Positions 41,562 through 60,722 of a DNA stretch of 64,000 bases are shown here, piece by piece (the first letter of the stretch is position 1; the number at the start of each line of letters is the position of its first letter). The notes beneath the pieces were generated by a model, which ran no database searches, was not told the origin of the DNA, and saw nothing but the letters and a program-made list of their open reading frames with translations. The position numbers and the translations under genes are program-made. Origin of the DNA: a virus; IMG/VR virus record IMGVR_UViG_3300033149_002985, positions 1 through 64,000 of that record. The stretch is one strand, 5' to 3'.

Positions 41562-42212
41562 TTAAACCTTTGTTGTTTTATATTTGGCTCTAATGTTTTT
41601 AAATTTCCAAATAAATCCACCACAAGAATTAACTTTATTAAGACAACATGAACTAATATTTCCTTGAAATAATTTTAATTTTTTAGATGCTTCTGTAGCA
41701 CTTTTCCATTCTTTTATAAAAACACCATTTAAATCAAATTGTAATACAGATTTAATATTACTTTCTTTATTTGATTTAATTATATTTTTCTTTAACTCTA
41801 TAAATCTACAATTTGAAAATTCATAATGTTGATTACTATTTTTTCTATCAATACTAGGTTGTTTCATGAGATAAGCCTTATCTCTATACCAAAGAAATTT
41901 AATATTTTCTAAACTAAGATGATTTTTAATTCCTTTTCCACCGTAATATTTATATGAAATGTGATTTGGATTTACACAACGATTATGAATATTATGCCAT
42001 ATTATTTTCCAAGGACATTTTTCTTTATATTCTTTTTGGTATTTTGTTATTTTTTCTTTGTTTTGATTATAATATTCCACTTGATGTTTATTGTGACAAA
42101 TGATACAATCATTTCTATATTTTCCAGAATCCTTCCGAAAATTGAAAAATTCTTCCGTTTCTGGTTTTTCTTGTTCACAAAGAATACAGATTTTATTTAG
42201 AGATTTTTTCAT
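41562..42212 (-). CDS. HNH-type homing endonuclease with NUMOD1, 216 aa
   Basis: An N-terminal zinc pair set (CILCEQ, CIICHN) is followed by CVNPNHISYKYYGGKGI and SIDRKNSNQHYEFSNCRFIE, a nuclease core shared with the gene at 53921. Residues about 150-205 (VLQFDLNGVFIKEWKSATEA) are a NUMOD1 DNA-binding domain. It is a free-standing mobile gene among early genes. Confidence 0.8.
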   Translation of the reverse strand: MKKSLNKICILCEQEKPETEEFFNFRKDSGKYRNDCIICHNKHQVEYYNQNKEKITKYQKEYKEKCPWKIIWHNIHNRCVNPNHISYKYYGGKGIKNHLSLENIKFLWYRDKAYLMKQPSIDRKNSNQHYEFSNCRFIELKKNIIKSNKESNIKSVLQFDLNGVFIKEWKSATEASKKLKLFQGNISSCCLNKVNSCGGFIWKFKNIRAKYKTTKV

Positions 42213-42729: not shown

Positions 42730-43512
42730 TTACCTCTTATATTTTTTTGGAATAAAAGTTAATTCTTCTCTAATTTCTTCTCTTAATTTATTTTGATCAT
42801 AAGTTTGTTTATTTAATTTATTAAAAAATGTAGAATAATTTATCTTTTCAAATGTAGGGATTTTTGAGTTAGGTGAAACATTCCAAATTTTCACATTATT
42901 TTCATTTTTATAAACTCCATATTCATGTTCTGCTCTTGAGATTCTTTTATTGTTTTCTAACTGAGTAGCTTGATACCAATTAACTTTTCCTATACCTCTA
43001 TGCTTTAATGTTAAAGGCTTACCAGTATAACGACTTATTATATTTCCGTATTGATAAAAATGAGTTAAAGCTCTACCTTGAGAATCGTGAACTAAACTAT
43101 CCTTATCTTCACCTTTTTGACTTGAATTATCAAATCCTAATAAAAATATTTCCCCTTCATCTAAAATATAAATAGCTAAACTCAATGCAAATAATCCTGT
43201 CAAAGTAGCAGAATAAACGCCATGATGACAATCTCTGACATATTTAGAAGCCGTAATTAATTCAATATTGTTAGGTTTTGTAGGAACATTAGTATGTAAT
43301 CTTCCAACTGTTAATGGAAGTTTTTCTAAGTATTTTATTTCGTTTAAATAATAAGTATCATCTACATACATCCAACAAGTGCTATCCACAAAATGATGCG
43401 AATAATTTAATCCAATTATAAATTTATCTTTAAGTTTAGAAAATAAATCTTTATCGATTCCTTCTAATACGGAGCAACCACCGCCCAAGATTATTGCTTG
43501 TTTAGCTAACAT
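42730..43512 (-). CDS. DUF115-like glycosyltransferase/MptE-type protein, 260 aa
   Basis: AIILGGGCSVLEGID, then FIIGLNYSHHF and IFLLGFDNS follow the pattern of DUF115 and related sialyltransferase-like proteins: a Gly-rich nucleotide loop, a conserved NxS/H turn, and LLGFD. A second member is at 55237. It may move a sugar or pyrophosphoryl group. Part of a spread-out glycan-gene set. Confidence 0.65.
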   Translation of the reverse strand: MLAKQAIILGGGCSVLEGIDKDLFSKLKDKFIIGLNYSHHFVDSTCWMYVDDTYYLNEIKYLEKLPLTVGRLHTNVPTKPNNIELITASKYVRDCHHGVYSATLTGLFALSLAIYILDEGEIFLLGFDNSSQKGEDKDSLVHDSQGRALTHFYQYGNIISRYTGKPLTLKHRGIGKVNWYQATQLENNKRISRAEHEYGVYKNENNVKIWNVSPNSKIPTFEKINYSTFFNKLNKQTYDQNKLREEIREELTFIPKKYKR

Positions 43513-44060
43513 TATAATATCCTATCAGGATTGATTCTTTTTAATAATTCATGATATATTAAAAAGGTATTTTTAGCATCATCTTTTGCATTATGTTTTT
43601 TACCATCAAATCGCATGCCTAAACGGATTAATGATTTTGCTAATCCCGACCGATGGCTTTCTCCTTTAGAAAACATATAAGATATAAAAAGAGTTTTTAC
43701 ATCTATCCAACGGCGACCAAATAAAAAAATTTCATCATCTAAGTCTAATGCCTTCCGCAAATCTTGACTATCTCCTCCACCCCAAGTTAAAGGATTACGA
43801 AAACATTTATAATGAGCATGAAGAGCCTTTAAATCTTCATAAATTTCAGGAAAAGAAATTCCATGATCTATATCTCTTTGTTTAATTCCAGTTAATTTTT
43901 TAATATATTCTGATAATAGAAGAGTTACTTTAACATGTTCGCAATATTCTTCTAAAATCTTCCCCGATTTTAAATTGCCTATAACAACCCCTATTTGAAT
44001 AATAGTTTGGCAAGGTTGTTCATATTCCATGTCTAAAGAAACAATATTAATATCTTTCAT
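43512..44060 (-). CDS. DnaQ-like 3'-5' exonuclease (DEDDh), 182 aa
   Basis: Exo I is SLDMEYE (D-x-E), exo II lies in GGGDSQDLRKAL and exo III is HNAKDDAKNT, the DEDDh set of DNA polymerase III epsilon and RNase T. It trims 3' ends of DNA or RNA. ITGIKQRDID-type spacing (LTGIKQRDIDHG) is canonical. It overlaps the DUF115 gene by one base. Confidence 0.85.
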   Translation of the reverse strand: MKDINIVSLDMEYEQPCQTIIQIGVVIGNLKSGKILEEYCEHVKVTLLLSEYIKKLTGIKQRDIDHGISFPEIYEDLKALHAHYKCFRNPLTWGGGDSQDLRKALDLDDEIFLFGRRWIDVKTLFISYMFSKGESHRSGLAKSLIRLGMRFDGKKHNAKDDAKNTFLIYHELLKRINPDRIL

Positions 44061-44062
44061 TT

Positions 44063-44437
44063 TTATTCTGGAAAGAATTTATTTTCCCATCCTCTTATAA
44101 AATTAATACCATACTCTAAAATACCATAACAATCATTCATTATTTCATTATATATTTCTTCTGCTTCTTTTAAAGCTTCTATTTCAGTTTCGAATATTTT
44201 ACATTCTCCAAAATAATCTTTTAATACTTTAGGATTTATTTCATTGCGTTTTTCATGTTTAGGTAAATGACCTCCACAATGTTGACATTGATGTTGTCCA
44301 TTACTAATACATTTAGGTATTGGATTATTACAACAAGTAAAAATTTCCCACCAATAGAGATTATCAATAGCTTGTGCATGAGTCACTCTAAAACCATCTA
44401 AAGACTGTAAAATGTAGATCCCGTTGTCTGAACTGAT
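44063..44437 (-). CDS. Hypothetical zinc-pair protein, about 124 aa, start uncertain
   Basis: The first canonical start is a GTG at 44386 (VTHAQAIDNLYWWEIF), but the frame stays open and protein-like upstream (SSDNGIYILQSLDGFR). An AGGAGG site ends nine bases before an ATC at 44437-44435. Either ATC is used as a rare start or the GTG is used with no site. CQHCGG and CCNN suggest zinc binding. The 17-residue extension looks conserved in style. Confidence 0.6.
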   Translation of the reverse strand: MSSDNGIYILQSLDGFRVTHAQAIDNLYWWEIFTCCNNPIPKCISNGQHQCQHCGGHLPKHEKRNEINPKVLKDYFGECKIFETEIEALKEAEEIYNEIMNDCYGILEYGINFIRGWENKFFPE

Positions 44438-44452
44438 CTCTACTGCCCTCCT

Positions 44453-44560
44453 TTATACTTTTTTAACACTTCCAGGTCTTACTCTGCCTTTCTTATCATC
44501 AAGAGCATCATAAACCTTTTGTTTCCTTAATAGTCTATTTACTTTATTTCTATGTTTCAT
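44453..44560 (-). CDS. Small basic protein, 35 aa
   Basis: MKHRNKVNRLLRKQKVYDAL then DDKKGRVRPGSVKKV. Highly basic, with start close to the stop of the upstream gene. It ends just before the AGGAGG of the next gene. Confidence 0.5.
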   Translation of the reverse strand: MKHRNKVNRLLRKQKVYDALDDKKGRVRPGSVKKV

Positions 44561-44895
44561 TTGAGTCCCTCTTTGAGTTGAGCTATACGCTCTATTACAG
44601 AACTAGCACAGTTGAAACAATCGTTATGCAATTCTAACTCCTCTATCCTCGCCTTGATTGTCTCTTTCTTATGATGAAGAGATTGCTCGTTAATACATTC
44701 CTTTTGTGTGTTAATTAATTCTAAATCTTCTTCGGCATTTCTTTCATACATTTTCTCTTGTTTTTCCAATGCAGAACGTAGAAAGAATTTAACTTCCTCA
44801 CCACAACTCACCCAACCATCTTCGCACTTCTTATCTAAGCCATGTGGAAACTTCTCATCGAATTCTTTCATCTTCTGGTCTATATATTCATTCAT
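44557..44895 (-). CDS. Coiled-coil protein, 112 aa
   Basis: The ATG with AAAGGGGTATA upstream is used rather than 44919. The N-terminus (IDQKMKEFDEKFPHGLDKKC) is followed by a long helix and CFNCASS. Its ATG overlaps the upstream TGA. No family is recognised. Confidence 0.6.
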   Translation of the reverse strand: MNEYIDQKMKEFDEKFPHGLDKKCEDGWVSCGEEVKFFLRSALEKQEKMYERNAEEDLELINTQKECINEQSLHHKKETIKARIEELELHNDCFNCASSVIERIAQLKEGLK

Positions 44896-45055
44896 TATAC
44901 CCCTTTGCATATAGCGCATCTACTATTAAATATTCAACCCCATACATAATATCCCCAACTTCTTCTCTTGCATTTTCATTTGTAAAAGAAACCTGTTTGT
45001 GAAGATGTTGTTGTATGCAATCACATACAATATCTGCTATTTTTTCTTTATCCAT
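44888..45055 (-). CDS. Hypothetical acidic protein, 55 aa
   Basis: MDKEKIADIVCDCIQQHLHK, then EEVGDIMYGVEYLIVDAL; helical, with two Cys. Overlaps the next gene by eight bases (ATGAATGA). Confidence 0.55.
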   Translation of the reverse strand: MDKEKIADIVCDCIQQHLHKQVSFTNENAREEVGDIMYGVEYLIVDALYAKGYNE

Positions 45056-45061
45056 TATTTT

Positions 45062-45154
45062 TTACTCCTTCCACATCCATAACATAAAATAGAAACTAAA
45101 TATAAATAGCCATCCACTTATAAATGTTCCAAGAATAATTTTAAGAAATTCCAT
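45062..45154 (-). CDS. Tiny membrane protein, 30 aa
   Basis: MEFLKIILGTFISGWLFIFS continues hydrophobic to WMWKE. The ATG overlaps the upstream stop (TAATG). One membrane span; function unknown. Confidence 0.45.
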   Translation of the reverse strand: MEFLKIILGTFISGWLFIFSFYFMLWMWKE

Positions 45155-45282
45155 TATTGTTTATTTCCTTTTTTATTATTAGAAAGAGCTTTAACATATG
45201 ACCATTCATTATATGTTTTTTGAGGAAATCCATTTTCTTTTAATTCTTTAGCTATTGCTAAATCTACTGTATATTCTTTCAT
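45154..45282 (-). CDS. Small protein, 42 aa
   Basis: MKEYTVDLAIAKELKENGFP then QKTYNEWSYVKA. The NGFPQ-T-x-W pattern is recalled from small phage proteins. Start overlaps the end of the RNA ligase gene region. Confidence 0.55.
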   Translation of the reverse strand: MKEYTVDLAIAKELKENGFPQKTYNEWSYVKALSNNKKGNKQ

Positions 45283-46007
45283 GATTGTCCTTTTGGTTTT
45301 TCATCGTTCAAAATTGTTTTTTTATATAAATGACCAGAAGCTGTGTGATAGATACAAATTCCCTCCGCATTCATAAAACCTGGAACAGCTTTACTTCCTT
45401 CCATTTTTAAACGCATTAAAATAGTATCAATTGTAATAGTATTAAACATCCCTTCATATAAAATAGGAACAACTTTACAGCATTTTGGAGCGGGGGAAGT
45501 ATATTTTTCTTCTTTTGTTTTAGAGTTAATACTAATTAATCTTTTCTCTTTATTATGTTGATGCCATTTTTTAACATTAAATAATGCAAGTCTTTTTTCG
45601 TCTAATCCATAATTTCTATTTATTCCTTTACCGTAAAATTCTCCAAAATGCCTCCCTTTTCCTAGTTTGAGAAGTTCTTCTGCGTTTTCTTTAACCCATC
45701 GAGCAAAACCATGATTATCACAATTTTTTCCGCTATCTACCGAAAGCCATCTTGTACGAGAACCAGCAAACATATATAAAATATCATTTTCATCCGTCAT
45801 TGCGAGTGTTTTATAAAGACAATATTTATCAATAAATTCTTTCATAGCTTCATCTGTGCCTACTCCTTGATTCCATTCAGTAAAAAATGAATTATGTAAA
45901 TCTTGTCTACGCATAATAACAATTTGTCCATTAGTTCCATCAATTTTTTCGCTGATTACTATATCTCTACTTAATCGAGGTATTTTATTAAATTTTTGGA
46001 ATTCCAT
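45279..46007 (-). CDS. RNA ligase family protein, 242 aa
   Basis: ISEKIDGTNGQIVI is the nucleotidyltransferase motif I (KxDGxxG) whose Lys takes AMP. GEFYGKGINRNYGL and EGICIY serve as later motifs. Size fits short Rnl2-like ligases. It would seal nicked RNA, for example tRNAs cut by host anticodon nucleases. No end-healing kinase is seen in the window. Confidence 0.8.
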   Translation of the reverse strand: MEFQKFNKIPRLSRDIVISEKIDGTNGQIVIMRRQDLHNSFFTEWNQGVGTDEAMKEFIDKYCLYKTLAMTDENDILYMFAGSRTRWLSVDSGKNCDNHGFARWVKENAEELLKLGKGRHFGEFYGKGINRNYGLDEKRLALFNVKKWHQHNKEKRLISINSKTKEEKYTSPAPKCCKVVPILYEGMFNTITIDTILMRLKMEGSKAVPGFMNAEGICIYHTASGHLYKKTILNDEKPKGQS

Positions 46008-46308
46008 TTTTACTCCTTATAAAATAAAAAATACTTGTTAAAATGATTCCTATAAATAATAATGCAATAACAGCAATAGCTGTAATTTCTCCTAAAAATT
46101 CTGAAGTTATGACATTCATAAAACCTTTAATAAAATTAGTCGTTTTTGTTCCTTGTATAATAATACCTGAAAATATCATCCAAAAACCTAAATTAAAAAA
46201 ATTTTGTAAAGTTAAATATTCAACACATCCTTCTTTATATTTTATACTTTTAACATAAGTGAAATACATAATAATTCCACCTAATACAATTATTATATTA
46301 AATAACAT
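45988..46308 (-). CDS. Membrane protein with three segments, 106 aa
   Basis: Hydrophobic stretches MLFNIIIVLGGIIMYFTYV, FFNLGFWMIFSGIIIQ and ITAIAVIALLFIGIILTSIF. Start overlaps the upstream stop. No family is recognised; could alter the host envelope. Confidence 0.65.
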   Translation of the reverse strand: MLFNIIIVLGGIIMYFTYVKSIKYKEGCVEYLTLQNFFNLGFWMIFSGIIIQGTKTTNFIKGFMNVITSEFLGEITAIAVIALLFIGIILTSIFYFIRSKNGIPKI

Positions 46309-46484
46309 TAATTATTTCCTTCTTCACAAACAAATTTAAAATCTAATAAATTATATAAAATTGAACTAAGCATAAAACCATTAAAAATATGTATCCAATG
46401 TATATCAAAAAATTTAGCAGAGAAATTAGCAATGAAAGTGTATAAAATAATTCCTATTAAATGTATTTTTTGTGCTTGAGTCAT
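46308..46484 (-). CDS. Small membrane protein, 58 aa
   Basis: MTQAQKIHLIGIILYTFIAN and WIHIFNGFMLSSILYNLLD are two likely spans. Its stop overlaps the next ATG. Part of a run of four tiny membrane genes. Confidence 0.6.
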   Translation of the reverse strand: MTQAQKIHLIGIILYTFIANFSAKFFDIHWIHIFNGFMLSSILYNLLDFKFVCEEGNN

Positions 46485-46579
46485 TCCAATATTCTCTTTT
46501 TAATATCTTTCCTAATATTCCAAAAACCTGCAAGAGAAATGAGTATTAAAATAGATGCAATTATTTGATAGATATTCAT
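46481..46579 (-). CDS. Tiny membrane protein, 32 aa
   Basis: MNIYQIIASILILISLAGFW, then a basic tail. First gene after the promoter at 46599-46628, with a GGAAGAAAGATC site. Confidence 0.55.
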   Translation of the reverse strand: MNIYQIIASILILISLAGFWNIRKDIKKRILE

Positions 46580-46598
46580 GATCTTTCTTCCCTATATA

Positions 46599-46628
46599 AG
46601 TATAACATACGCTTTAGAAGGCTGTCAA
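46599..46628 (-). promoter_or_regulatory. Sigma70 promoter, leftward (TTGACA-18-TATACT)
   Basis: On the minus strand TTGACA (46628-46623) and TATACT (46604-46599) are 18 bases apart with TGT before the -10. It matches the + strand promoters. It restarts transcription for the genes below 46.6 kb. Confidence 0.8.
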
Positions 46629-46822
46629 GAGCTCAACCTGATAATAATATGAGTAGGAAAAGCATAGTCATTTAAGAACACTTTTATACAATTATCATCT
46701 TCATCATGCAAAAGTCTCCAAACATTACTACCTCCAGATTCTTCATAACCCTCTGCAATTAAACCATTTACAGTAGCTCGTAATAATTTTTTATAAAATT
46801 CTAAATTCTCAAGAACGTCCAT
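46625..46822 (-). CDS. Hypothetical protein, 65 aa
   Basis: MDVLENLEFYKKLLRATVNG helix, then beta strands (VWRLLHDEDDNCIKVFLND). Its stop lies in the -35 of the next promoter. No family is recognised. Confidence 0.6.
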   Translation of the reverse strand: MDVLENLEFYKKLLRATVNGLIAEGYEESGGSNVWRLLHDEDDNCIKVFLNDYAFPTHIIIRLSS

Positions 46823-47421
46823 TAAGATCTCCTATTTTTAAATTCCCTACTTTTCTGCCAATGTATAATTACAGGCTCTTTAATGTAATTAGGAACTTCT
46901 TTTTTCATATTTATCACAACACAATAGCTGGCTGGTAATTTATAAATATTCAAATCAACTTGTTTTTCGATTATTCGTTCCAAAATTTTTTGTTCCCAAA
47001 CATTAGGAGCTTCTTTACAATCTCTAATACATTGTTCGAAAATTTTAATCATTTTTTCATTATATTTTATAAACATTGTGCCAGATAATAGATGGAAATT
47101 ATCCCCCCCTGTTTGATTCCTCCAATTTAAATACCAATCTAGCCAATGAGCTCCAAAATCTGTTTCTTTTGGCAAATCAAAAAGTAATTGGGGATAAGAT
47201 TCTATTATTGCATCTGCATCTAAGAATACGACATCTTCTTTAAATTTATTCATTGTATTCAATATAAAAGTAGGTTTATATGATGTATTTGCATTCCAGT
47301 TTTGAAGATCAATAACTTTTTCAATATGATAATCTAACTTCCACTTTTTTAAAGAAGGTAATAAATAAGTATTCATTACATTTTCATAATTTCCTGGAGT
47401 GTAATATGAAATAAATTTCAC
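46822..47421 (-). CDS. Glycosyltransferase-like (GT-A) protein, 199 aa
   Basis: VVFLDADAIIESYPQLLF carries a DxD metal/sugar-nucleotide motif; FGAHWLDWY and LLSGTMFIKYN fit the acceptor side of GT77/GT8-like folds. It starts at GTG overlapping the upstream stop. First in a line of sugar-related genes. Confidence 0.7.
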   Translation of the reverse strand: MKFISYYTPGNYENVMNTYLLPSLKKWKLDYHIEKVIDLQNWNANTSYKPTFILNTMNKFKEDVVFLDADAIIESYPQLLFDLPKETDFGAHWLDWYLNWRNQTGGDNFHLLSGTMFIKYNEKMIKIFEQCIRDCKEAPNVWEQKILERIIEKQVDLNIYKLPASYCVVINMKKEVPNYIKEPVIIHWQKSREFKNRRS

Positions 47422-47579
47422 TTTTTAACCTCAACTAATTTATATATTTTTCCATTTTTAAGTATTATTTTAGCATCTTTGGCTTCTTCTAAAGTTAAAG
47501 AACCGCCTATTAATTCTCTCCCATCAGATAATCTAATATATCCTTCAGCTAATACACCAATTACATATTGATTTTTCAT
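47418..47579 (-). CDS. Hypothetical protein, 53 aa
   Basis: MKNQYVIGVLAEGYIRLSDG, then LTLEEAKDAKIILKNGKIY. A compact beta-alpha pattern. GAGGTAGGATT upstream is a good ribosome binding site. Confidence 0.6.
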   Translation of the reverse strand: MKNQYVIGVLAEGYIRLSDGRELIGGSLTLEEAKDAKIILKNGKIYKLVEVKK

Positions 47580-48454
47580 AATCCTACCTCCTTTAATTTT
47601 TTAAATAATTCTTGAATCCTAATACTAATATCGTGGTCTTGATAACATATTTTTTGAGTTTGTTTTCCAATATATCCTAAATATTCATATTGTAATAAAA
47701 AAATTAATTTTTTAATCATAGAAAACGAATCATCGTAAAAAAATATTTCTTCATTTTCTTTAAATAACATACGAGTATCTTCTCTATTATATGTTAATAC
47801 AGGAGTGCCACAGGCACTACTTTCAAAAATCCGATGAGCCAAAGCAGAAGTATCATTTGTAATATCTAAAACAATATGGGTTTTATTAATTTCTTCTATT
47901 AATTGTTCTCCTTCTATAAATCCGTGAGTATCTTCGTTTTTGTCCCACTCATGACCAAAAACTTTTACATTAAATCCTAATTCTCGTAGTTTATTAACTA
48001 CTTCATTTCGATTAGGAATAAAGCTATGTTTGCCAACTCCAATTACTAATATATCTGTTTCTTTTTTTAAATGGAGATTTTTATGATAGCGTTTATCACA
48101 AGAAGTTGGATTATAAATAACTAATTTTTTATTTTTTAAATCATTGTATAATCTCCAATCATTAGTAACATAAATATCACAATTTTCCATATGTTCTTCA
48201 GAATAAAGATTAGGATCAGATAATCCAAATGCTATTACAGGTATTTTGATTTTTTCGAATTCTTCTTCTGTAATTTTAGTTCCTGCACCTACAAGCCAAA
48301 CTTGATCATATTTATTGTAATCTATTTTAGGATTTTGATTTTTATTAAATAAATCTACTTTATGTCCAAGAATTTGCAAATATTCATAAGTTGCTCTTGT
48401 TGTAGGAAAGCTATTCCAATTATAGAAAAATGGTATTACCATACAAATTTTCAT
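47576..48454 (-). CDS. Glycosyltransferase, GT-B fold (CgeB/GT4-like), 292 aa
   Basis: The N-terminus MKICMVIPFFYNWNSFPTTR is typical of GT-B enzymes. The C-terminal half has ILVIGVGKHSFIPNR and AHRIFESSACGTPVLTY, the donor-binding E-x7-E type motif. It would transfer a sugar from a nucleotide donor; acceptor unknown. Confidence 0.8.
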   Translation of the reverse strand: MKICMVIPFFYNWNSFPTTRATYEYLQILGHKVDLFNKNQNPKIDYNKYDQVWLVGAGTKITEEEFEKIKIPVIAFGLSDPNLYSEEHMENCDIYVTNDWRLYNDLKNKKLVIYNPTSCDKRYHKNLHLKKETDILVIGVGKHSFIPNRNEVVNKLRELGFNVKVFGHEWDKNEDTHGFIEGEQLIEEINKTHIVLDITNDTSALAHRIFESSACGTPVLTYNREDTRMLFKENEEIFFYDDSFSMIKKLIFLLQYEYLGYIGKQTQKICYQDHDISIRIQELFKKLKEVGL

Positions 48455-48457
48455 CTT

Positions 48458-49735
48458 TTATCCTTTATTATAATTAGTTTGTTTGATTACTCGTTCCATT
48501 TCTCCAACCACCCATTTTTGTTCTTCCATTGTAAGAAATTTGTTATGAATAAGAGGAGTATACTCTCTTTTTTTAGCTTCTTCGCCTATTTTTTGGTAAA
48601 AATCTTTATTATATTGTCGAAAATTTTTACTAAGTATTTCACAATTAAAAGAATCAGGATCATTAAAGATCGGAGTTCCAGGAAGAGGAATAAAAGTACT
48701 AAGCGTAGCATAATCTATTGGGAAAACTTTTAATAAAGTTTCATTAATAAGAGGCGAATCTAGTCGTTCGCCAGGCACACCTGCCATAAAAAGACCTCTA
48801 ACCTTTAATCCTGCTCTTTGAGCATTAATACAACCCTTAAACATTTTTTCAACTGTTGTATTCTTATGTAAGAAATCCAATACTCTCTGATCTAAATTTT
48901 CAATACCAGGAGACATTTCTCTTGCTCCTGAATCATACATTGCGTTAGCAATTTCTTCTGTTACAGATTCGGCTCTAATACTACATCTCCAAAGTATTTT
49001 CAACGGTTTAACTTTCTTACAAAATTCTAAACATCTCTTAGAATTAGAAGTTAAATTATCATCGGCTAATCTAAATTGATTGATGTTATACTTCTTTTTA
49101 AGTAATTCCATTTCTTCTATAATACTATCAATGGAGCGATAGCGAACTTTCCGTGTCCACATAGCTTGAGAAGCACAGAAACTACAATTAAAAGGACATC
49201 CTCTGCTAGTTAAAAAATTGATACTATCTCCTTCTTTTTTATCAAAGAAAATTCCTTTACCTAATTTAGTTTCAACTAAATCATAGTTTATAAAAGGAAG
49301 AGAATCCAAATCTTTTACGTATTCTTTCATAAAATAAACAGGTTTTAATTGATTTTTTTCAACATCGTTTATCATTTCAAGAATTAAATTTTCCCCTTCT
49401 CCTACGCAAATAGCGTCAAATAGTTTGGTTTCGTTAACTTCTTTAAACATAGATGAAACATGAACTCCACCTATAAAAATCTTTGTCTTAGGAAAATGTT
49501 TCCTAATTAATTTAGCACAATCCTCGTTCATAGGATATTCCAAGGTAGTACCTCCCAAGCAAATAATGTCATAATCGGGATAATTTAACAATTCTTTTTT
49601 AAGCATGGGTCGAATAAATTTAACTTCATGTCCTGCGTTTTGGGCAATAGTGGCTACCATTAGTAGTCCCACAGGAATCTGTACGTGTTGGCGCACGAGA
49701 TATGGTGCTGGAGACTCTAGAAAAAGAATTCTCAT
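48458..49735 (-). CDS. B12-binding-type radical SAM protein, 425 aa
   Basis: TSRGCPFNCSFCASQ (Cys 180, 184, 187) is the CxxxCxxC iron-sulfur motif of radical SAM enzymes. The N-terminal 140 residues fit a B12-binding Rossmann fold without the cobalamin His (no DxHxxG). GIENLDQRVLDFLHK and IPLPGTPIF are usual for the class. Likely methylates or rearranges a sugar, lipid or base. The ATG with AAAGGAGATATTTC is used. Confidence 0.85.
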   Translation of the reverse strand: MRILFLESPAPYLVRQHVQIPVGLLMVATIAQNAGHEVKFIRPMLKKELLNYPDYDIICLGGTTLEYPMNEDCAKLIRKHFPKTKIFIGGVHVSSMFKEVNETKLFDAICVGEGENLILEMINDVEKNQLKPVYFMKEYVKDLDSLPFINYDLVETKLGKGIFFDKKEGDSINFLTSRGCPFNCSFCASQAMWTRKVRYRSIDSIIEEMELLKKKYNINQFRLADDNLTSNSKRCLEFCKKVKPLKILWRCSIRAESVTEEIANAMYDSGAREMSPGIENLDQRVLDFLHKNTTVEKMFKGCINAQRAGLKVRGLFMAGVPGERLDSPLINETLLKVFPIDYATLSTFIPLPGTPIFNDPDSFNCEILSKNFRQYNKDFYQKIGEEAKKREYTPLIHNKFLTMEEQKWVVGEMERVIKQTNYNKG

Positions 49736-50217
49736 GAAATATCTCCTTTTAACCAATTTAACCAATTTGCTTTATAATTTTTCTGAAAATGAACAATACC
49801 AAATTGAAAACCCATAGGTGGAAATTCTTTTGGAGTATTAATTAATAAAATTTCTTTAATATCAAAACCATGATTTTGCATATCTCGAACTCTTGCTTTT
49901 GTCCAAATATGATTAATTGTGATTAAAAAAACAATATTTTGTGAAATTTCAAAAGAATGAATTAAAAATTTTCGCATTTTGGAATAAGGTGGATTTGTAA
50001 TAATCCAATCAACTTTTTTATTATAATTAAAAAAATCTTTTCCTTCTTCTATTTCACACCAATCTGCTTTCATATATTTTAAAAAATTACCAGTTCCTTT
50101 ACATGGTTCAAGAATTTTACCAGAAGGTTTAAAATGTTCAACAATAGCTTTACACAAATAATCTGGAGTCATTATAACATCATTACTTGAATAATTTCTA
50201 TTTGGTTGATTTTTCAT
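49732..50217 (-). CDS. N6-adenine-type DNA methyltransferase, 161 aa
   Basis: ILEPCKGTGNFLKYM is the SAM motif and WIITNPPYSKMR the catalytic NPPY; order fits gamma/alpha-type enzymes. It is short, with no target-recognition domain, so it may be a minimal DNA or protein methyltransferase. Overlaps the radical SAM gene by four bases. Confidence 0.75.
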   Translation of the reverse strand: MKNQPNRNYSSNDVIMTPDYLCKAIVEHFKPSGKILEPCKGTGNFLKYMKADWCEIEEGKDFFNYNKKVDWIITNPPYSKMRKFLIHSFEISQNIVFLITINHIWTKARVRDMQNHGFDIKEILLINTPKEFPPMGFQFGIVHFQKNYKANWLNWLKGDIS

Positions 50218-50381
50218 TTTTCCACCTTTTCTTTACATGGATCAACTTCTGCTAATAATTTACCATCTAATGCCCAATATTGAGTTATTCTTCTAGCAAC
50301 TCCACCATTATTTTGTTCTTGTTGACTTGCTCCACGAACTTCGATATCTGTTACTATAACCTGTATTAATTTCGCACTCAT
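50214..50381 (-). CDS. Small phage protein, 55 aa
   Basis: MSAKLIQVIVTDIEVRGASQ and VARRITQYWALDGKLLAEVDP are recalled from a widespread small phage family of unknown role. The ATG with AAAGGAGAAATC is used rather than 50417. Confidence 0.75.
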   Translation of the reverse strand: MSAKLIQVIVTDIEVRGASQQEQNNGGVARRITQYWALDGKLLAEVDPCKEKVEK

Positions 50382-51154
50382 GATTTCTCCTTTGGTTTGA
50401 AAGGACAAGCATCCCATAGAGGATTCAAATTTATTTCTGATTTATTATATTGTTTGAATTTTTGATCAATTAATAAAAAATTAGTTTCCTTATTTATTAT
50501 TAAAGGAATATCGTCTTTACGATTTACAGAAGTAAAATAATCTCGAAATTTAAATCCTTTACCTAGAACTTTTTCAGATAATCGAACCCAAATATTAGGA
50601 ATTCCGTATGCATCTGCTATTATTAACCCATGCAAAGCAGAACTCATAACTTGTTCACTTGCACAAATTTCATCTATAAATTGATAGAGATCTCCTGTAA
50701 TATCAATAAAATGAATATTTTTAAATCGTTTTTTAAGAATAGGAATTAATTCTCTATCTATATGGTGTGGAATAATAGATAAGGCATATTTTTTATCCAT
50801 CCTTGGCTTATAAAATCTTGACATTAATAATGCTGGATCACCATAAATTTTTGGACAGTCATAACCTCTTTTAATTAATTCTTCTCTAGTTAATTTACCC
50901 CTTACTGCACAAATTTTTTTAGGTTTTTCTTGAAACATTGTATTATCTGTTTCAGACATTTTACCAGTGCCCCAAATTATAGTATTTTTATCAGCCCATC
51001 CAATCACACTTCCAATTGCCATATAAATTGTTTCGTTTTCTGGATTCAGAAAACTATTATTAACAATAGTTGGAGCATGTCCAGTAATTAGACGAATTAA
51101 TTCGCTATTTAAAGTATCACCAAAATTTCTTAATTTACAAGCTCTAAGTAACAT
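50378..51154 (-). CDS. Polysaccharide pyruvyl transferase family protein, 258 aa
   Basis: NFGDTLNSELIRLITGH, AVRGKLTREEL, IYGDPALL and MSSALHGLIIADAYGIP are the motifs of the PS_pyruv_trans family. It moves pyruvate from PEP to a sugar in surface glycans. Same operon as the sugar transferases. Overlaps the next gene by four bases. Confidence 0.85.
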   Translation of the reverse strand: MLLRACKLRNFGDTLNSELIRLITGHAPTIVNNSFLNPENETIYMAIGSVIGWADKNTIIWGTGKMSETDNTMFQEKPKKICAVRGKLTREELIKRGYDCPKIYGDPALLMSRFYKPRMDKKYALSIIPHHIDRELIPILKKRFKNIHFIDITGDLYQFIDEICASEQVMSSALHGLIIADAYGIPNIWVRLSEKVLGKGFKFRDYFTSVNRKDDIPLIINKETNFLLIDQKFKQYNKSEINLNPLWDACPFKPKEKS

Positions 51155-51170
51155 TTTTTAAAATCCTCTA

Positions 51171-51656
51171 TTATTTTTGTGCGTATTTTCTTAAATCCAC
51201 AAATTTAATTTTTCTTTGTTTACTTTTGGGTTTAAAAATAATAATAGCAGAAGCAAATGGAGCAGTTGTTTTTTTACCTCCAAACTTTACTTTGCCTCTC
51301 ATAAACCAGATTTCATCTGCATTATTGCAAATAATATCATGCCAATAGGTTCTATCTGTAGCGGAAACAATTAAAAATACTACAGTAGCATTATTATTTT
51401 CTGATTCTGCATATCCTTTTTCTAACCATTCTCTAGTATGTCCACCATAGGGAGGATTAACGAAAACAATCTCATCTTTCCAAGATTTAATTAATCCATT
51501 ATCTTTTATAGTATAATGTTTTTTACATTTTGTATTTTCATGAGTACAACAAGGATCAAGGGTAAAATTAAATATAGAATCTAAATAATTAAATAAATTT
51601 AAAGGAGTAGCCCATTCGTTACTTTTAGATGAAACCATCGCCTTTTGTAATGACAT
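51171..51656 (-). CDS. Phage DNA N6-adenine methyltransferase (Dam-like), 161 aa
   Basis: EWATPLNLFNYLDSIFNFTL, DPCCTHENTKC and VFVNPPYGGHTREWLEKGY match the phage-type DNA N6-adenine methylase family. It protects phage DNA or marks replicated DNA. AAAGGAGTATAATT precedes it. Distinct from the other two methyltransferases. Confidence 0.88.
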   Translation of the reverse strand: MSLQKAMVSSKSNEWATPLNLFNYLDSIFNFTLDPCCTHENTKCKKHYTIKDNGLIKSWKDEIVFVNPPYGGHTREWLEKGYAESENNNATVVFLIVSATDRTYWHDIICNNADEIWFMRGKVKFGGKKTTAPFASAIIIFKPKSKQRKIKFVDLRKYAQK

Positions 51657-51668
51657 AATTATACTCCT

Positions 51669-52268
51669 TTATTTAGCATTAGCTTTTATTCTCCAAAAAT
51701 AATAACCTTTTCCTTTTTCCTTTTTAATACTTATAATATGATATTGTTTAAATAATTCTTTAATTTCTTTAGGGGAATATTCTATCAAAGGTTCGGGTTT
51801 TTTACAATACCTTTTTTGAGTTCCTATCCTAAATAAAATATCAATTTCCCCCTCAGGGGTTAAAACTCTTCTAAAAAAATCTAAATATTGTTTACAAAGT
51901 TTAGGAGAAATATGTTGAAAAACATGCCTAGCATAAACAAAATCTATAGGTAATAATATTTTCTTTTCATAATGTTCTGCAAGAACTAATTTAACCTTAT
52001 ATATATCTCCGTGCATTTTGATAAAATCAAAAGCTTCATTTAATATCTTAGATGACACTTCAATCCCATAAACTTTTTTAGCGTATTTAGAAAAATAATA
52101 TGTTTCCCTGCCATACCCACAGCCAATATCAACAATAACTTTATCCTTAATCTTTTCAATAATTTCTGAATCTTCAAGTGCTAATTGAAAATTTTTATAT
52201 TGTTTATGATTGGCAAAATAATCATTTTGCTGAAGTTTTTTCCAAACACGTAAGTTGTGGTCGATCAT
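51669..52268 (-). CDS. Class I SAM-dependent methyltransferase, 199 aa
   Basis: VIVDIGCGYGRETYYFSKY is SAM motif I and IEVSSKILNEA motif II. No DNA-type catalytic motif. The setting suggests methylation of a sugar or other small molecule. Confidence 0.8.
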   Translation of the reverse strand: MIDHNLRVWKKLQQNDYFANHKQYKNFQLALEDSEIIEKIKDKVIVDIGCGYGRETYYFSKYAKKVYGIEVSSKILNEAFDFIKMHGDIYKVKLVLAEHYEKKILLPIDFVYARHVFQHISPKLCKQYLDFFRRVLTPEGEIDILFRIGTQKRYCKKPEPLIEYSPKEIKELFKQYHIISIKKEKGKGYYFWRIKANAK

Positions 52269-52436
52269 TTATTTCCTTTTTCTTAAATCGTATTTGCTCT
52301 CAATTAAAGATAACAAATCTCCTCTAGCATCTTCCATCTCTCCGTTTAACATATCAGCAAAATAGTCAAGATAATATTCTGACCAACATGATAAAATATC
52401 TTCTTTGGTTATTTTATAATCACTATTTCTATCCAT
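52269..52436 (-). CDS. Small acidic protein, 55 aa
   Basis: MDRNSDYKITKEDILSCWSE, then YFADMLNGEMEDARGD, ending Lys/Arg-rich. Stop abuts the next ATG. No family is recognised. Confidence 0.6.
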   Translation of the reverse strand: MDRNSDYKITKEDILSCWSEYYLDYFADMLNGEMEDARGDLLSLIESKYDLRKRK

Positions 52437-53100
52437 TATACTCTCTTTTATATTTTTCTATGACTTCTTTATATGATAAATGTTCAATATCTTTTAAATT
52501 GTATTTTCCGCCCCATTCTTTATCTATTTTTCTCTTCCAAGAACCAATTCTATTACTATGGAAATCAATACTATATAAAACTTTATTAACATCAGTTGTA
52601 GGATAAACTTTCTCCATTACTTCTCGCCATTTTGCGTCTTCTGCACCAAAATTCATATTTTCTGGAAAACGAATAGTTTTATTTACTGGAAAGAGCAAGG
52701 TAGCAAAACCCCTAGTTGTACCAGGTTTCTTAGTTTTTAAATTTTCCCATGTACAATAAACCATTTTATCTTCTGTCATTTCTTTTAATTGTAGTTCAAT
52801 TCTTTCAGGATGAGAAACGTCGTCAGAATCCATCCACATAGCGTATTTTGTATTGCATAAATCTAATAAACGATTCCTAGCATGACCTACACCCCAATTT
52901 TCATCCCAATAATAATATTTAATTCTATTATCTTGTTGACTTAACTTTTCAACAATTTGTTTAGTATTATCTGTTGATCCGTCATCATAAATAATCAATT
53001 CAAAATTTGTATATGTTTGATTGAGAATACTTTGAATAGATCGCTCTATAAAATCTTCTCTATTATAAACTGGCATTAATACACTTATTTTTTCATTCAT
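52429..53100 (-). CDS. Glycosyltransferase family 2, 223 aa
   Basis: ISVLMPVYNREDFIERSIQS, LIIYDDGSTDNT and YAMWMDSDDVSHPER are the classical GT2 (GT-A) motifs, with DSDD as the DxD. The C-terminal half (TRGFATLLFPVNK) is shorter than usual. It probably uses a nucleotide sugar; acceptor unknown. Confidence 0.9.
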   Translation of the reverse strand: MNEKISVLMPVYNREDFIERSIQSILNQTYTNFELIIYDDGSTDNTKQIVEKLSQQDNRIKYYYWDENWGVGHARNRLLDLCNTKYAMWMDSDDVSHPERIELQLKEMTEDKMVYCTWENLKTKKPGTTRGFATLLFPVNKTIRFPENMNFGAEDAKWREVMEKVYPTTDVNKVLYSIDFHSNRIGSWKRKIDKEWGGKYNLKDIEHLSYKEVIEKYKREYNG

Positions 53101-53344
53101 AATAAACTCCTTTAAATTTATTCCCTTTTAAATAATTACGAACTTGTGTAGCTTTAATTAAAATCTCTTCATATTGACATCTAATACAAGAATTACACTC
53201 ATCTATACAATCACCATGATGCTCATTTTGCGATTCTTTAATAAATTGAGCCCATGTTCTTAATGTTTCACATCTATCAGGTTTTTTATCCATATAAATA
53301 CAATAAACTAAATAAGTAATATCTCTTAATAATAATTTTTTCAT
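53093..53344 (-). CDS. Cys-rich hypothetical protein, 83 aa
   Basis: CETLRTW, then HHGDCIDECNSCIRCQYEE gives a four-Cys cluster that may bind zinc or an Fe-S centre. Overlaps the GT2 gene by eight bases. Confidence 0.6.
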   Translation of the reverse strand: MKKLLLRDITYLVYCIYMDKKPDRCETLRTWAQFIKESQNEHHGDCIDECNSCIRCQYEEILIKATQVRNYLKGNKFKGVYYE

Positions 53345-53931
53345 ATTAATTTATCCTCTCTTGGTATCCCTTCATAAACAATCTCGAATTTTTCAGGATG
53401 TGCAATAACATATTTATATAAAGACCAAGTTGTGAGTTCACTATGAGTTTTTGCACCAAAGGTTTCGCTAAGTGATTTTTTTGCCCAGTATGCAATACGA
53501 TTAATACATATATCTTGATTAGGTAATTGCATGTATCTAGCAAATAATTTTATCCCTGTCAACCAAGTTAAGAGATTTCCAAAACAATTAAGAATATCGT
53601 ATCCTTCATCTAAATCTTCCATTGTTATTTTACATAAATAACTTCTTTCAATGCTACTCATTCCTTTTATTCTAAAAATAAAAAGATTATTATTGGTATT
53701 CAAAAGTTTTGTTGAAGAATTAATTTGCACTTTACTTTGTTGTTCAATAATAGAATCTTTATTTAAAAACATTAAAGCATGATAGTGCAGAGGTTTTTCC
53801 AATTTTCCAACTATCATTCTAAAAAAATCATGCCAAATTGTCGGGCTTCGCATTAAATATTTAACAAATTTAGGACAAATTTTTTTACTATCTACTAATG
53901 CGAAATCGCCTGGTAAAATATTAATTTTCAT
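53341..53931 (-). CDS. Permuted papain-like (YiiX/NlpC-P60 type) hydrolase, putative, 196 aa
   Basis: LPGDFALVDS, then HYHALMFLNKDSIIEQ fits the His-bearing half of permuted NlpC/P60 folds. YDILNCFGNLLTW or DICINRIAYWA may give the Cys. Members act on peptides, lipids or thioesters. GGAGGTATAAAA precedes the chosen ATG; the longer frame reaches into the homing gene. Confidence 0.5.
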   Translation of the reverse strand: MKINILPGDFALVDSKKICPKFVKYLMRSPTIWHDFFRMIVGKLEKPLHYHALMFLNKDSIIEQQSKVQINSSTKLLNTNNNLFIFRIKGMSSIERSYLCKITMEDLDEGYDILNCFGNLLTWLTGIKLFARYMQLPNQDICINRIAYWAKKSLSETFGAKTHSELTTWSLYKYVIAHPEKFEIVYEGIPREDKLI

Positions 53932-54403
53932 TTTTATACCTCCAAATAAAATTACCTGCGTTTGGTTTATTACTTTTACAACATTGACATATATTAGAAT
54001 GATTAATTTTAAGGGTTTTACTTGCAAATATAAGACTTTCCCATTCATTAATAAATTTCCCATTTAAATCATATTGTAAAATTGGTATACTGGAAACTCT
54101 TTTATTTCTTTCTGCACTATTTAATCTTTTTTCAATATATCTGCAATTTTTAAAAGTATAATTATTATCATTTTTTATTCTATCAATAGTGGGTTGTTTC
54201 ATTTCGTAAGCTTTATCAAAATACCATAACTCCCTTAATTGATTTTCTGTTATTAGACATTTAATCCCTCTACCTCCATAATCTTTATAGGACTTATTAT
54301 TGGGATTGGTACATCGTTGTTTAATAACAACTAATGTTTTTCGCCAAGGAAATCTCTTGTAATAATTTAAAATATCTTTATTTATTTTATCTTGATTTTT
54401 CAT
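53921..54403 (-). CDS. HNH-type homing endonuclease paralogue with NUMOD1, 160 aa
   Basis: CTNPNNKSYKDYGGRGIK and TIDRIKNDNNYTFKNCRYIE copy the core of the gene at 41562. The NUMOD1 part (ILQYDLNGKFINEWESLIFA) follows. It lacks the N-terminal zinc pairs of its paralogue, so it is shorter. It lies directly before the hydrolase gene and contains its ribosome binding site. Confidence 0.8.
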   Translation of the reverse strand: MKNQDKINKDILNYYKRFPWRKTLVVIKQRCTNPNNKSYKDYGGRGIKCLITENQLRELWYFDKAYEMKQPTIDRIKNDNNYTFKNCRYIEKRLNSAERNKRVSSIPILQYDLNGKFINEWESLIFASKTLKINHSNICQCCKSNKPNAGNFIWRYKNEN

Positions 54404-54405
54404 AA

Positions 54406-54921
54406 TTAAATCAGCATTAATAAATAACCAGTAAATATAAATCCATAGTTTATTAAATCACTAACTAATAAATTATTTCCAAATACTTTAATTTCTCCCC
54501 ATCCTCGATAACTAAATATTGTTTGTCCTATAATTATGAACAAGCATCCTATAATATAGAACAGCCAATTTGCTTTTAAAATAGGACATACTAAACCTAT
54601 TAAACACATTCCTAATCCAATTGTACCACGCACAAAAATATCAGTTAAACGATGGTTCTGATTTAAAATCTTATACCAAAATCTTCCAAGAGTAGAACCT
54701 GCATCTGTCGCATCAGGAATACCATATCCCATGCTGACCCATATCCCAAATGTACCTAAAAGAATACCTAACCATGATTGTAAAGAGATAACTCCTATTG
54801 TTGCTAAAATAATGGGTAATATTACTCTTCTCCATTCTTTAACTCCTTGACCTCCTAAAGCTCCTAAATAGGCTCCGATAAGGGGCAATAGATATTTTAA
54901 TTGTTTAAAAAATTTGAACAT
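54406..54921 (-). CDS. Polytopic membrane protein, 171 aa
   Basis: At least four membrane segments (LLPLIGAYLGALGG, VILPIILATIGVISL, IGLGMCLIGLVCPIL, WLFYIIGCLFIIIGQTIF). Gly-rich segments are found in small phage membrane proteins. No family is recognised; holin or exclusion roles are guesses. Confidence 0.65.
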   Translation of the reverse strand: MFKFFKQLKYLLPLIGAYLGALGGQGVKEWRRVILPIILATIGVISLQSWLGILLGTFGIWVSMGYGIPDATDAGSTLGRFWYKILNQNHRLTDIFVRGTIGLGMCLIGLVCPILKANWLFYIIGCLFIIIGQTIFSYRGWGEIKVFGNNLLVSDLINYGFIFTGYLLMLI

Positions 54922-55076
54922 TCGTTTATCTCCTCTAATTCATTTTCTGTTATTGAAATACAAACCTCGTTGTCTGGACTTAAATAAGGATTATAACCTT
55001 GTCTACAAAGCGAAACAATTAATTGATCTGCATAATCTTCATTTAGAATTTCTATTTTAAATTCATATTTTTTCAT
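54897..55076 (-). CDS. Small protein, 59 aa
   Basis: MKKYEFKIEILNEDYADQLI, then RQGYNPYLSPDNEVCISITE. Beta-alpha pattern. Overlaps the membrane protein gene by 25 bases. Confidence 0.6.
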   Translation of the reverse strand: MKKYEFKIEILNEDYADQLIVSLCRQGYNPYLSPDNEVCISITENELEEINECSNFLNN

Positions 55077-55240
55077 TTATGAGTCTCCCAATCAAATTTT
55101 AAAATATCTTTCTTTTTTGGTGGTTTATCAAATCTAATAGTATTATCCCCTGTATATTCCCAGGGATTTAAAAAATCAGGAACTCTAATAGTAAATGTCC
55201 ATTTAAAAATTTTTATAATTCTATACATTTCTACTTTCAT
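55073..55240 (-). CDS. Small protein, 55 aa
   Basis: MKVEMYRIIKIFKWTFTIRV, then WEYTGDNTIRFDKPPKKK. Overlaps its neighbours by four bases on each side. No family is recognised. Confidence 0.55.
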   Translation of the reverse strand: MKVEMYRIIKIFKWTFTIRVPDFLNPWEYTGDNTIRFDKPPKKKDILKFDWETHK

Positions 55241-55899
55241 TTTAAAATTTCCTCTATATCTTTGTATTCAATAAATTTATTTAATCGACTTGTTTTTGAA
55301 CAACTAATAATTTTAATATCTGGGCGTTCTTTATTAAGTTTTTTTAAGACTTCTGCAAAATGAGGGTAATAATTACTCAAATTTTTATTGAATTTTTCAA
55401 CACTACGTCCATATCCTCCATGATAATGAGTTTCTTCTGTTGAACACATATCCATCCCAAGCAGGTAGATCTTTTTGAATTTTTTAATAATGGTATACTG
55501 GAATGCACAGAAGCCACTATTATAACCACTGTGGAAGTTATCGAAATTATATCCTACGTCTTTTGCTGAACGGCAAATAATAATCTGGTTAAAATCTGTC
55601 AGATTGTACGTTAAATTATAACGAGTATCAGTAATTTTTCCATTTTTAAGTTGCATAAAGGAAGCAATGAGATTCACGACAAATATCTTCTTGGACGGCG
55701 TTAGCTTCCAGCGATTGTAAAGGTTATACTTTTTCAAATAATTCAAAAAAGTGATATCCGTCGTAATAAAAAAGTTTGCGTTCGGGACATCCAAAAATGA
55801 TTTATTACTAACTATAGTAATTTTGTCTTTCAATTTGTTAAAATCGAATTCTTTTAAACTCGACCCCCCTGCCACAATAAATATAGAATTGTTATTCAT
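55237..55899 (-). CDS. DUF115/sialyltransferase-like protein, 220 aa
   Basis: IFIVAGGSSLKEFDFNKLKD, IVSNKSFLDVPNANFFITTD, IYLLGMDMCSTEETHYHGGY and IKIISCSKTSRL parallel the DUF115 and Cst-type sialyltransferase layout, with GGSSL for the donor and HYHGGY near the catalytic His. Same architecture as the gene at 42730. Probably sugar transfer. The gene has visibly less A/T-biased stretches in its middle. Confidence 0.65.
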   Translation of the reverse strand: MNNNSIFIVAGGSSLKEFDFNKLKDKITIVSNKSFLDVPNANFFITTDITFLNYLKKYNLYNRWKLTPSKKIFVVNLIASFMQLKNGKITDTRYNLTYNLTDFNQIIICRSAKDVGYNFDNFHSGYNSGFCAFQYTIIKKFKKIYLLGMDMCSTEETHYHGGYGRSVEKFNKNLSNYYPHFAEVLKKLNKERPDIKIISCSKTSRLNKFIEYKDIEEILK

Positions 55900-56605
55900 A
55901 TTTGTCCGATTTTCTTAAATTATCTTCAGCCCACATCGGTTGAAGATTAGTATAATTAAAACATTTTAATTGCTCTTCTGGCTTGCTTAAATCAAACAAG
56001 ACACATGGTTTAATATGGTCTATAACCCACTCTTTTTTACCATTCCAACCTCCACCATAATTATCCCAATTCATACCTTCTACAAATTGTTCTTCTAAAT
56101 GTTGTTTTAATTGTTCTATAGAACAACCTAATAGCTCGATTGTTCTTTTACTTTTTGAGTTTATTTTCAACGCCTGTCCGATGCGCCTTCTTAAATTGTT
56201 TGTAATTCTAAAATTAATATCTGTTTTTCTTCTATTTCTTTGATACTTACTTGTTTGTTTATTAATTTTTTCTTTGTTTTTATCTTGGTATTCTTTATTG
56301 TATTTCGCAAACCTTTCTCTATTTTTTCCTTGATAGTCTTTTTGATATTTTGCAACTTTTGCTTTATTTTTATCTCTATACTCTTTTGCGTATTTTAATG
56401 ATTTCTTTTTGTTTTCTGGCTTGGCAAGGTATTTTTTATTTCGTTTAGCGATTTTATCCTTATTATTGTCGTTGTATTTTTTTACACATTCTTTACATTC
56501 AGGTCGTAATCCGTCTTTCATGCTTTTATTCTTACTAAATGCACTCAGAGGTTTTACGGGTTGTTTACAGTTTTTGTTATTACAAATTTTAGTTTCTTTA
56601 TCCAT
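55892..56605 (-). CDS. HNH endonuclease with zinc finger and Lys-rich repeats, 237 aa
   Basis: CNNKNCKQPVKPLSAFSKNK starts a zinc finger closed by CKECVKKY. Residues 50-125 are repeats of the type KYxKEYQDKNKEK. The C-terminus WVIDHIKPCVLFDL, then NYTNLQPMWAEDN, is the HNH nuclease common in phages. Probably a homing gene. Confidence 0.85.
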   Translation of the reverse strand: MDKETKICNNKNCKQPVKPLSAFSKNKSMKDGLRPECKECVKKYNDNNKDKIAKRNKKYLAKPENKKKSLKYAKEYRDKNKAKVAKYQKDYQGKNRERFAKYNKEYQDKNKEKINKQTSKYQRNRRKTDINFRITNNLRRRIGQALKINSKSKRTIELLGCSIEQLKQHLEEQFVEGMNWDNYGGGWNGKKEWVIDHIKPCVLFDLSKPEEQLKCFNYTNLQPMWAEDNLRKSDKYE

Positions 56606-57003
56606 TACAAATCCAGTAAGCCTTTTATTTTTAAAATATCAATAGTATATTCTTTTCCATCGATTATTTTACCACCTAAACTTTTTCTATTAATATCATT
56701 GGGATCGATTTTTCCTTCTTCAACATAAGCCATTTCAATCATTACTGTATCTGTGTCAGCAACAAAACGATGTTTGGTTGGACATCTGACTACCCAACTT
56801 TCATTTTCCATTAATGATGCGCTTCCAAATTCTGTTTCAATTCTGACGTTTCCTGAAATAACAATAAATTTATTAATTTTATTTTTATGTGTATGGGTTG
56901 AACAAAATGTGTTAGCTTTTAAATATAGCAAATCAACTTCATTTTTATCATCTAAATGTATTCTTCTTCGTGTTCCCCAAATCTTATTTATATTTTCGCT
57001 CAT
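56605..57003 (-). CDS. Cupin protein (mannose-6-phosphate isomerase type II-like), 132 aa
   Basis: STHTHKNKINKFIVISGNVRI and KHRFVADTDTVMIEM match both cupin motifs, with His ligands. WGTRRRIHLDDKNEVDLLYL resembles sugar-phosphate isomerase domains. It may alter an activated sugar for the transferases nearby. AAAAAGGAGAATA fixes the start. Confidence 0.8.
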   Translation of the reverse strand: MSENINKIWGTRRRIHLDDKNEVDLLYLKANTFCSTHTHKNKINKFIVISGNVRIETEFGSASLMENESWVVRCPTKHRFVADTDTVMIEMAYVEEGKIDPNDINRKSLGGKIIDGKEYTIDILKIKGLLDL

Positions 57004-57148
57004 TATTCTCCTTTTTGGAATGATATTTTGGATTACACCAAATACAACCATTTTTTGTAAAAAATTTATCACTAGGTAATATTCTAAAACAAGTCTTACA
57101 TTCTAATTCATTTTCAAACCAAGGGCGTGTAAAAATATCATTTTTCAT
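56984..57148 (-). CDS. Small zinc-finger protein, 54 aa
   Basis: CKTCFRILPSDKFF, then CIWCNPKYHSKK form a CxxC/CxxC finger as at the start of many HNH genes. Overlaps the cupin start by 20 bases. May be a broken or independent zinc module. Confidence 0.6.
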   Translation of the reverse strand: MKNDIFTRPWFENELECKTCFRILPSDKFFTKNGCIWCNPKYHSKKENNERKYK

Positions 57149-60521: not shown

Positions 60522-60722
60522 TTATATTGAATGTGTTATATCCATTTCTTTTAAATCTCGCCATCTATACAATTTCTTACAAACAGGACATAATAATTTT
60601 TCATTCGGAAAATCTTTATTCCGTAATCCTTGGGGAAAACTGATGAAAATTCTCATTTTACATGAAGGTGTAGCATCTATTGGACATCTGTATTTTTTAA
60701 TTGAAATAAATTTATCTGTCAT
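60522..60722 (-). CDS. Small zinc-ribbon protein, 66 aa
   Basis: YRCPIDATPSCKMRIFISFP and LLCPVCKKLYRW are two Cys pairs. A ribbon fold for DNA, RNA or protein contact. Overlaps the SbcC N-half stop by four bases. Confidence 0.65.
   Translation of the reverse strand: MTDKFISIKKYRCPIDATPSCKMRIFISFPQGLRNKDFPNEKLLCPVCKKLYRWRDLKEMDITHSI

Follow-up and report, generated by a model that had tools for sequence, protein, structure and literature searches.

The stretch of DNA analysed here (the window, 64,000 nucleotides) is the first 64 kb of a 92,965-bp IMG/VR record (IMGVR_UViG_3300033149_002985, genome G000), over the whole length of which open reading frames (ORFs) were listed. Its source is an uncultured virus of bacteria; the closest cultured phages are distant, their tape measure and polymerase B proteins reaching only 22-27% identity. 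Virion genes occupy the + strand over roughly the first 37 kb, and from there on replication and accessory genes follow on the - strand. Among the latter lies a cassette of glycan enzyme genes, which a preliminary description, made by reading the letters alone, had presented as a candidate pathway for building a glycan or hypermodifying DNA. That observation is confirmed here, and the interpretation attached to it is partly supported.

The cassette genes share one direction (- strand) and most overlap by a few bases. In order of position, Pfam matches identify a GT-A nucleotide-diphospho-sugar transferase (GTA, 46822-47421; Nucleotid_trans PF03407, E = 3e-5, above the gathering cut-off; DAD motif), a GT-B glycosyltransferase (GTB, 47576-48454; Glyco_trans_1_2 PF13524, E = 5e-22), a B12-binding radical S-adenosylmethionine (SAM) enzyme (B12rSAM, 48458-49765; B12-binding PF02310, E = 6e-11; Radical_SAM PF04055, E = 2e-18), a polysaccharide pyruvyl transferase (PyrT, 50378-51154; PS_pyruv_trans PF04230, E = 1e-10), a class I SAM methyltransferase of the small-molecule type (51669-52268; PF13649, E = 2e-10), a GT2 glycosyltransferase (52429-53100; Glycos_transf_2 PF00535, E = 3e-38; DSDD motif) and a cupin of the mannose-6-phosphate isomerase C-terminal type (56605-57072; MannoseP_isomer PF01050, E = 2e-7). 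All of these had been named from the letters, and all were recovered in the family search. PyrT scores 42.5 bits against PF04230 (cut-off 25.3) and keeps the SALHG (SxLHG) motif in the alignment. In B12rSAM both the B12-binding and the radical SAM domains are present, with the cluster cysteines of CxxxCxxC (C190/C194/C197) invariant in the alignment. Its nearest named solved relative in a search of PDB sequences is AprD4 (6fd2, E = 2e-11); since AprD4 is an enzyme of apramycin biosynthesis, a sugar substrate is plausible for B12rSAM. The GT2 protein (223 aa) has no membrane tail by reading and matches PHROGs named 'GtrB-like O-antigen conversion'. Searches of PDB sequences found nothing for the cupin or for the profiles of PyrT, GT-B and DUF115b (see below).

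Two further proteins account for the DUF115/sialyltransferase-like pair of the preliminary description. DUF115b (55237-55899, - strand), a GT42/CST-II-like glycosyltransferase, matches phrog_4603 ('alpha-2,3-sialyltransferase') with E = 6e-20, carries conserved THYHGGYG and GYNSG motifs, and gives a weak match to Pfam MptE-like (7e-4, below the cut-off). DUF115a (42730-43512, - strand), the second GT42/DUF115-like protein, matches phrog_4603 with E = 1e-6 and no Pfam family. Profile comparison indicates that the two are homologous (hhalign probability 97.7%). The AlphaFold model of DUF115b reaches a mean confidence (pLDDT) of 83, and its best high-probability PDB match is the CST-II sialyltransferase (probability 0.99, TM-score about 0.5, E = 4e-3). 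The protein may thus have a CST-like fold, with a CMP-sugar as its putative donor. The model of DUF115a, built from two sequences, is poor (pLDDT 46). This gene is the constant gene of the locus in four relatives, and its product was aligned with the orthologues from the genomes G002, G014 and G015.

G002 (IMGVR_UViG_3300005264_000043, 42.9 kb) was found by a scan with the B12rSAM protein and is colinear with the window from the replication genes through the tail genes. At the same place it carries the order cupin-DUF115b-GT2-(GT-D-like)-PyrT-B12rSAM-GTB-(methyltransferase)-GTA, in which seven genes are ordered as in the window. The G002 cassette is tightly packed save for an interval of about 250 bp preceding B12rSAM, while the window version is opened up by homing endonucleases, Dam and N6 methyltransferases, a membrane protein and small ORFs. 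Relative to the window, G002 has an additional GT-D-like gene, and its SAM methyltransferase differs and sits elsewhere in the cassette. B12rSAM is the best-conserved cassette protein (77% identity in G002 and about 49% in the viral sequences L004 and L007), followed in G002 by GT2 (64%), GT-B (63%), DUF115b (59%), PyrT and GT-A (48% each); the cupin, directly upstream of DUF115b there, is 45% identical. The six enzyme genes, at 48-77% identity, have a median of 60.7%, whereas the median of 24 other genes common to both genomes is 37.0% (Mann-Whitney p = 6.5e-4), a difference that points to transfer as a unit, to stronger constraint, or to both. Because the order of seven genes is kept in so diverged a genome, the region is not a random mix unshared by relatives, the outcome that the preliminary description had named as a refutation, and its description as a glycan pathway, not a chance pile, gains support. 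The radical SAM gene of G002 (L005:8651-10759) also has an insertion of about 270 residues inside CxxxCxxC that looks, by reading, like an intein containing a homing-endonuclease domain.

Two other relatives, G014 and G015, were identified by a scan with the conserved neighbouring gene at 62814-63833. In both, a DUF115a orthologue (about 32-38% identical) is retained between the sbcC-type genes and the end of the convergent tail module, and neither gave a match to the B12rSAM profile. Beside DUF115a, G014 has two methyltransferases and two ORFs that by reading resemble sialyl- and heptosyltransferases but lack a Pfam match; at this place G015 has a different PS_pyruv_trans protein, a MurB-type FAD protein, a two-domain Glyco_transf_7C/Glyco_trans_1_2 glycosyltransferase and GT2-like ORFs. 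In the window, DUF115a stands at the opposite end of its cassette. Since different glycan genes occupy one place in the relatives, the slot appears to swap cassettes and is most readily interpreted as a site of cassette exchange that retains one constant gene.

Parts of the cassette also recur in unrelated phages. A scan with the PyrT profile yielded 64 loci in viral contigs, several with an adjacent GT2 or GTA gene; GT2-PyrT or GTA-GT2-PyrT runs are found in L033, L043, L046 and L050, and PyrT is grouped with B12rSAM and GTB in L004, L007 and L008/L015. Most of the B12rSAM matches with less than 30% identity (L010-L014, L016-L022) came without PyrT and GTB and were left out. Related clusters lie before the connector and tape-measure genes (L004), between portal and major capsid (L006), after terminase and portal (L007), directly after a major head protein (L009), after baseplate genes (L024), and between a phrog_24071 gene, also present in the L007 head block, and the minor head/tape measure genes (L043). 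In Pseudomonas phage PAJU2, a DUF115b-type cluster is found between head closure and tail terminator. These virion-operon examples were picked by hand among the matches, by inspection, and hence carry no formal p value.

Other islands encode chemistry matching glycan assembly: a UDP-GlcNAc 2-epimerase in L024, a polysaccharide deacetylase in L006, and KdsA/KdsB-type and LicD plus cytidylyltransferase functions as follows. L033 is LR756500, a 462-kb uncultured phage, whose island near PyrT and GT2 also holds DegT aminotransferase and GT29-like genes; at 9330-11084, DAHP-synthase-family and cytidylyltransferase genes read as KdsA/KdsB, that is, synthesis of Kdo activated by cytidine monophosphate (CMP). 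In L007 (14127-15024), LicD-family and cytidylyltransferase-like genes lie near PyrT and B12rSAM, suggesting phospho-substituted glycans.

Altogether, these data incline us, by somewhat more than an even chance, to the idea that the cassette serves to assemble, in the cytosol, an oligosaccharide that is pyruvylated and radical-SAM-modified and is carried by a virion protein. In this scheme, the soluble glycosyltransferases DUF115a, DUF115b, GT2, GT-B and GT-A would build a short oligosaccharide in the cytosol from host nucleotide sugars, presumably with PyrT placing a pyruvate ketal on the glycan. B12rSAM would either methylate or deoxygenate a sugar carbon, two outcomes that the sequence cannot tell apart, and the SAM methyltransferase may attach an O-methyl group. 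The acceptor would be a protein of the capsid, tail or fibre; DUF115a, whose gene is the constant one in the slot, is a plausible candidate for the transferase specific to it, and recombination at the fixed slot would swap the glycan 'serotype' of the particle. The ORFs scanned with Pfam, small ones such as 45988-46308 and 54406-54921 aside, included no recognisable flippase, polymerase, undecaprenyl-phosphate (Und-P) transferase, Wzx/Wzy, exporter or GtrA-like gene. Since every recognised enzyme reads as soluble and lipid-linked machinery was not recognised, assembly is probably cytosolic and on protein.

Several observations weigh against this proposal. The window cassette lies on the replication-gene strand and converges with the oppositely oriented virion genes, so that the argument from operons is drawn from other phages; in the window lineage the cassette abuts the convergent tail module. 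In the phages Carin-5 and Tunturi_5, a distant PyrT homologue is encoded amid genes of DNA metabolism. G014, the closest genome by one core gene (80%), has neither a B12rSAM match nor a PyrT seen in its slot. Finally, the cupin is found directly upstream of polB (DNA polymerase B) in L035 and L036 as well (57-58% identity), without the cassette on the stretches compared, and may for this reason be a separate lineage gene.

A broader version, which we regard as tentative and rather less likely than the assembly scheme itself, is that phages carry capsule-like 'serotype' loci in which a constant DUF115 transferase is combined with interchangeable cassettes coating the virion, so that particle surface identities can be swapped. 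The oligosaccharides of such loci, as part of the same tentative picture, would be complex, pyruvylated and radical-SAM-edited, some of them made from CMP-activated ulosonic acids.

Three targets had been envisaged in the preliminary description: the virion, the host surface and DNA bases. The first fits the present data better than the second, and the third, the hypermodification reading, is not supported. That the enzymes change the surface or capsule glycan of the infected host, so as to keep out superinfecting phages or prevent adsorption to debris, is unlikely in our estimate, even though bacterial surface polysaccharides typically involve pyruvyl transferases, GT2, GT-B and CMP-sugar-type transferases, the GT2 of the phage resembles the GtrB-like PHROGs, and the cassette genes of the window lie on the early-gene strand. 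The related clusters elsewhere stand inside head and tail operons, and the scanned genes included none recognisable as a GtrA-type flippase, Und-P transferase, Wzx/Wzy or exporter, though the region also has a membrane ORF (54406-54921) with no assigned role. For these two reasons virion decoration is preferred over a change of the host surface.

Modification of the genome itself, with the glycosyltransferases sugaring modified bases against restriction, appears improbable. Its appeal lies in the position of the cassette, within the replication-gene block and intermixed with DNA methyltransferases, the latter already mentioned in the preliminary description. These are a Dam-type DNA N6-adenine methyltransferase between cassette genes (51171-51656, - strand; PF05869, E = 4e-28) and an N6-adenine methyltransferase-like protein (49732-50217, - strand; NPPY motif; weak match to PF02384/PF13651, N6_Mtase/EcoRI_methylase). 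Moreover, virus glycosyltransferases are reported to hypermodify DNA with diverse glycans, to judge from the title of Pyle et al. 2024 as cited in PMC12619734, and G002 encodes a C5-cytosine methylase. However, both window methyltransferases are of the adenine type and have no tblastn match in G002; they probably stand outside the glycan pathway. The thymidylate-synthase/hydroxymethylase family (PF00303) is absent from the 92,965-bp record, as is the C5-cytosine methylase family (PF00145), the positive control having matched in each search, and these two results disfavour a DNA acceptor, although the record may be incomplete. No known base-opening enzyme turned up among the ORFs scanned with Pfam; a search for TET (PF12851) was uninformative, as the control genomes gave no match. 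Least probable of all, and by our reckoning very much so, is a set of loose accessory genes without a joint product, held together by recombination and homing endonucleases: such endonucleases and the DNA methyltransferases do break up the region and cassette content does differ among relatives, but seven genes keep one order in G000 and G002, whose backbones are about 37% identical, and the combinations of PyrT with B12rSAM and GTB (L004, L007, L015) or with GT2 and GTA (L033, L043, L046, L050) recur elsewhere.

Other genes of the stretch, among them an RNA ligase, an exonuclease and HNH-type endonucleases, had gone unlisted in the preliminary description. Two endonuclease genes interrupt the cassette on the - strand. 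One (55892-56605) is HNH-type by reading, with no Pfam hit, and is 46% identical by tblastn to an ORF inside the own cassette of G015; the other (53921-54403) is an HNH/NUMOD-like homing endonuclease and a paralogue of the HNH-type endonuclease at 41562-42212 (NUMOD domains by Pfam), both of them matching one G002 ORF, 53921-54403 at 44%. An RNase_T exonuclease (Pfam) is encoded at 43512-44060 and an RNA ligase (PF09414, E = 3e-10; KxDG motif) at 45279-46007, of which a 58% identical copy is present in G014. The membrane ORF already mentioned lies inside the cassette region, as does the gene of a predicted protein without an assigned fold (53341-54063, - strand). The latter had been described as a papain-like hydrolase, a reading we dropped as no significant match was obtained in Pfam, PHROGs or PDB sequences. 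Promoter and terminator scans gave no signal above the shuffle background; a single promoter-like site, scoring 11/12, is located at 46628-46599 (- strand), just downstream of the cassette.

Farther away, eight tRNA genes form a tight array at 4859-5613, upstream of the virion genes. An sbcC-like gene appears to be split, its ORFs at 60719-61849 and 58320-58976 flanking an sbcD-like ORF (59576-60502), and the same is seen in relatives. The polymerase B ORF of L036 (2624-5908; 1,094 aa) has its homologous parts about 300 residues apart, possibly owing to an intein. By eye, an ORF at L003:3619-4404 resembles a tyrosine recombinase/integrase, and a cluster on one phage genome (L002:11955-16434) appears to comprise M42 aminopeptidase, site-2 protease, trypsin-like protease, peptide deformylase and ClpP genes.

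A literature search with limited journal coverage found no description of phage clusters combining PyrT, B12rSAM and glycosyltransferases. As far as the literature found shows, virion glycosylation has been directly demonstrated in few phages and with few glycosyltransferases. With T4-type glucosylation of hydroxymethylcytosine and viral glycan hypermodification the window shares phage glycosyltransferases near DNA methyltransferases, but neither the hydroxymethylase nor the C5-cytosine methylase was found in its genome. Its GT2 resembles the GtrB PHROGs of GtrABC-type seroconversion; however, no GtrA flippase was recognised in the window, and the 223-aa GT2 lacks a membrane tail by reading. 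PAJU2 ORF10-12 similarly include a DUF115b/GT42-like gene and a methyltransferase gene, placed between head closure and tail terminator, but that putative glycan cluster is small and has no PyrT or B12rSAM. In mycobacteriophages, capsid and tail-tube proteins are reported to be glycosylated by phage-encoded glycosyltransferases (Freeman et al. 2023, as cited in PMC12363180 and PMC11256854). As far as these citing papers relate, the likeness to Che8, Corndog and Myrna lies in the phage glycosyltransferases and in a glycan proposed here, too, on a virion protein; the window differs in having five glycosyltransferase-type genes with PyrT and B12rSAM in a swapped slot, its glycan being a predicted one. 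Bacterial capsule and O-antigen loci, in which export and polymerisation genes are found that were not recognised in this phage genome, offer a further parallel: conserved flanks, variable glycan genes between them and swapping at a fixed site. If the proposal is correct, the cassette would supply soluble enzymes for unusual sugar chemistry, and complex glycans on virions would be common among environmental phages, which would exchange them much as bacteria do their capsule types.

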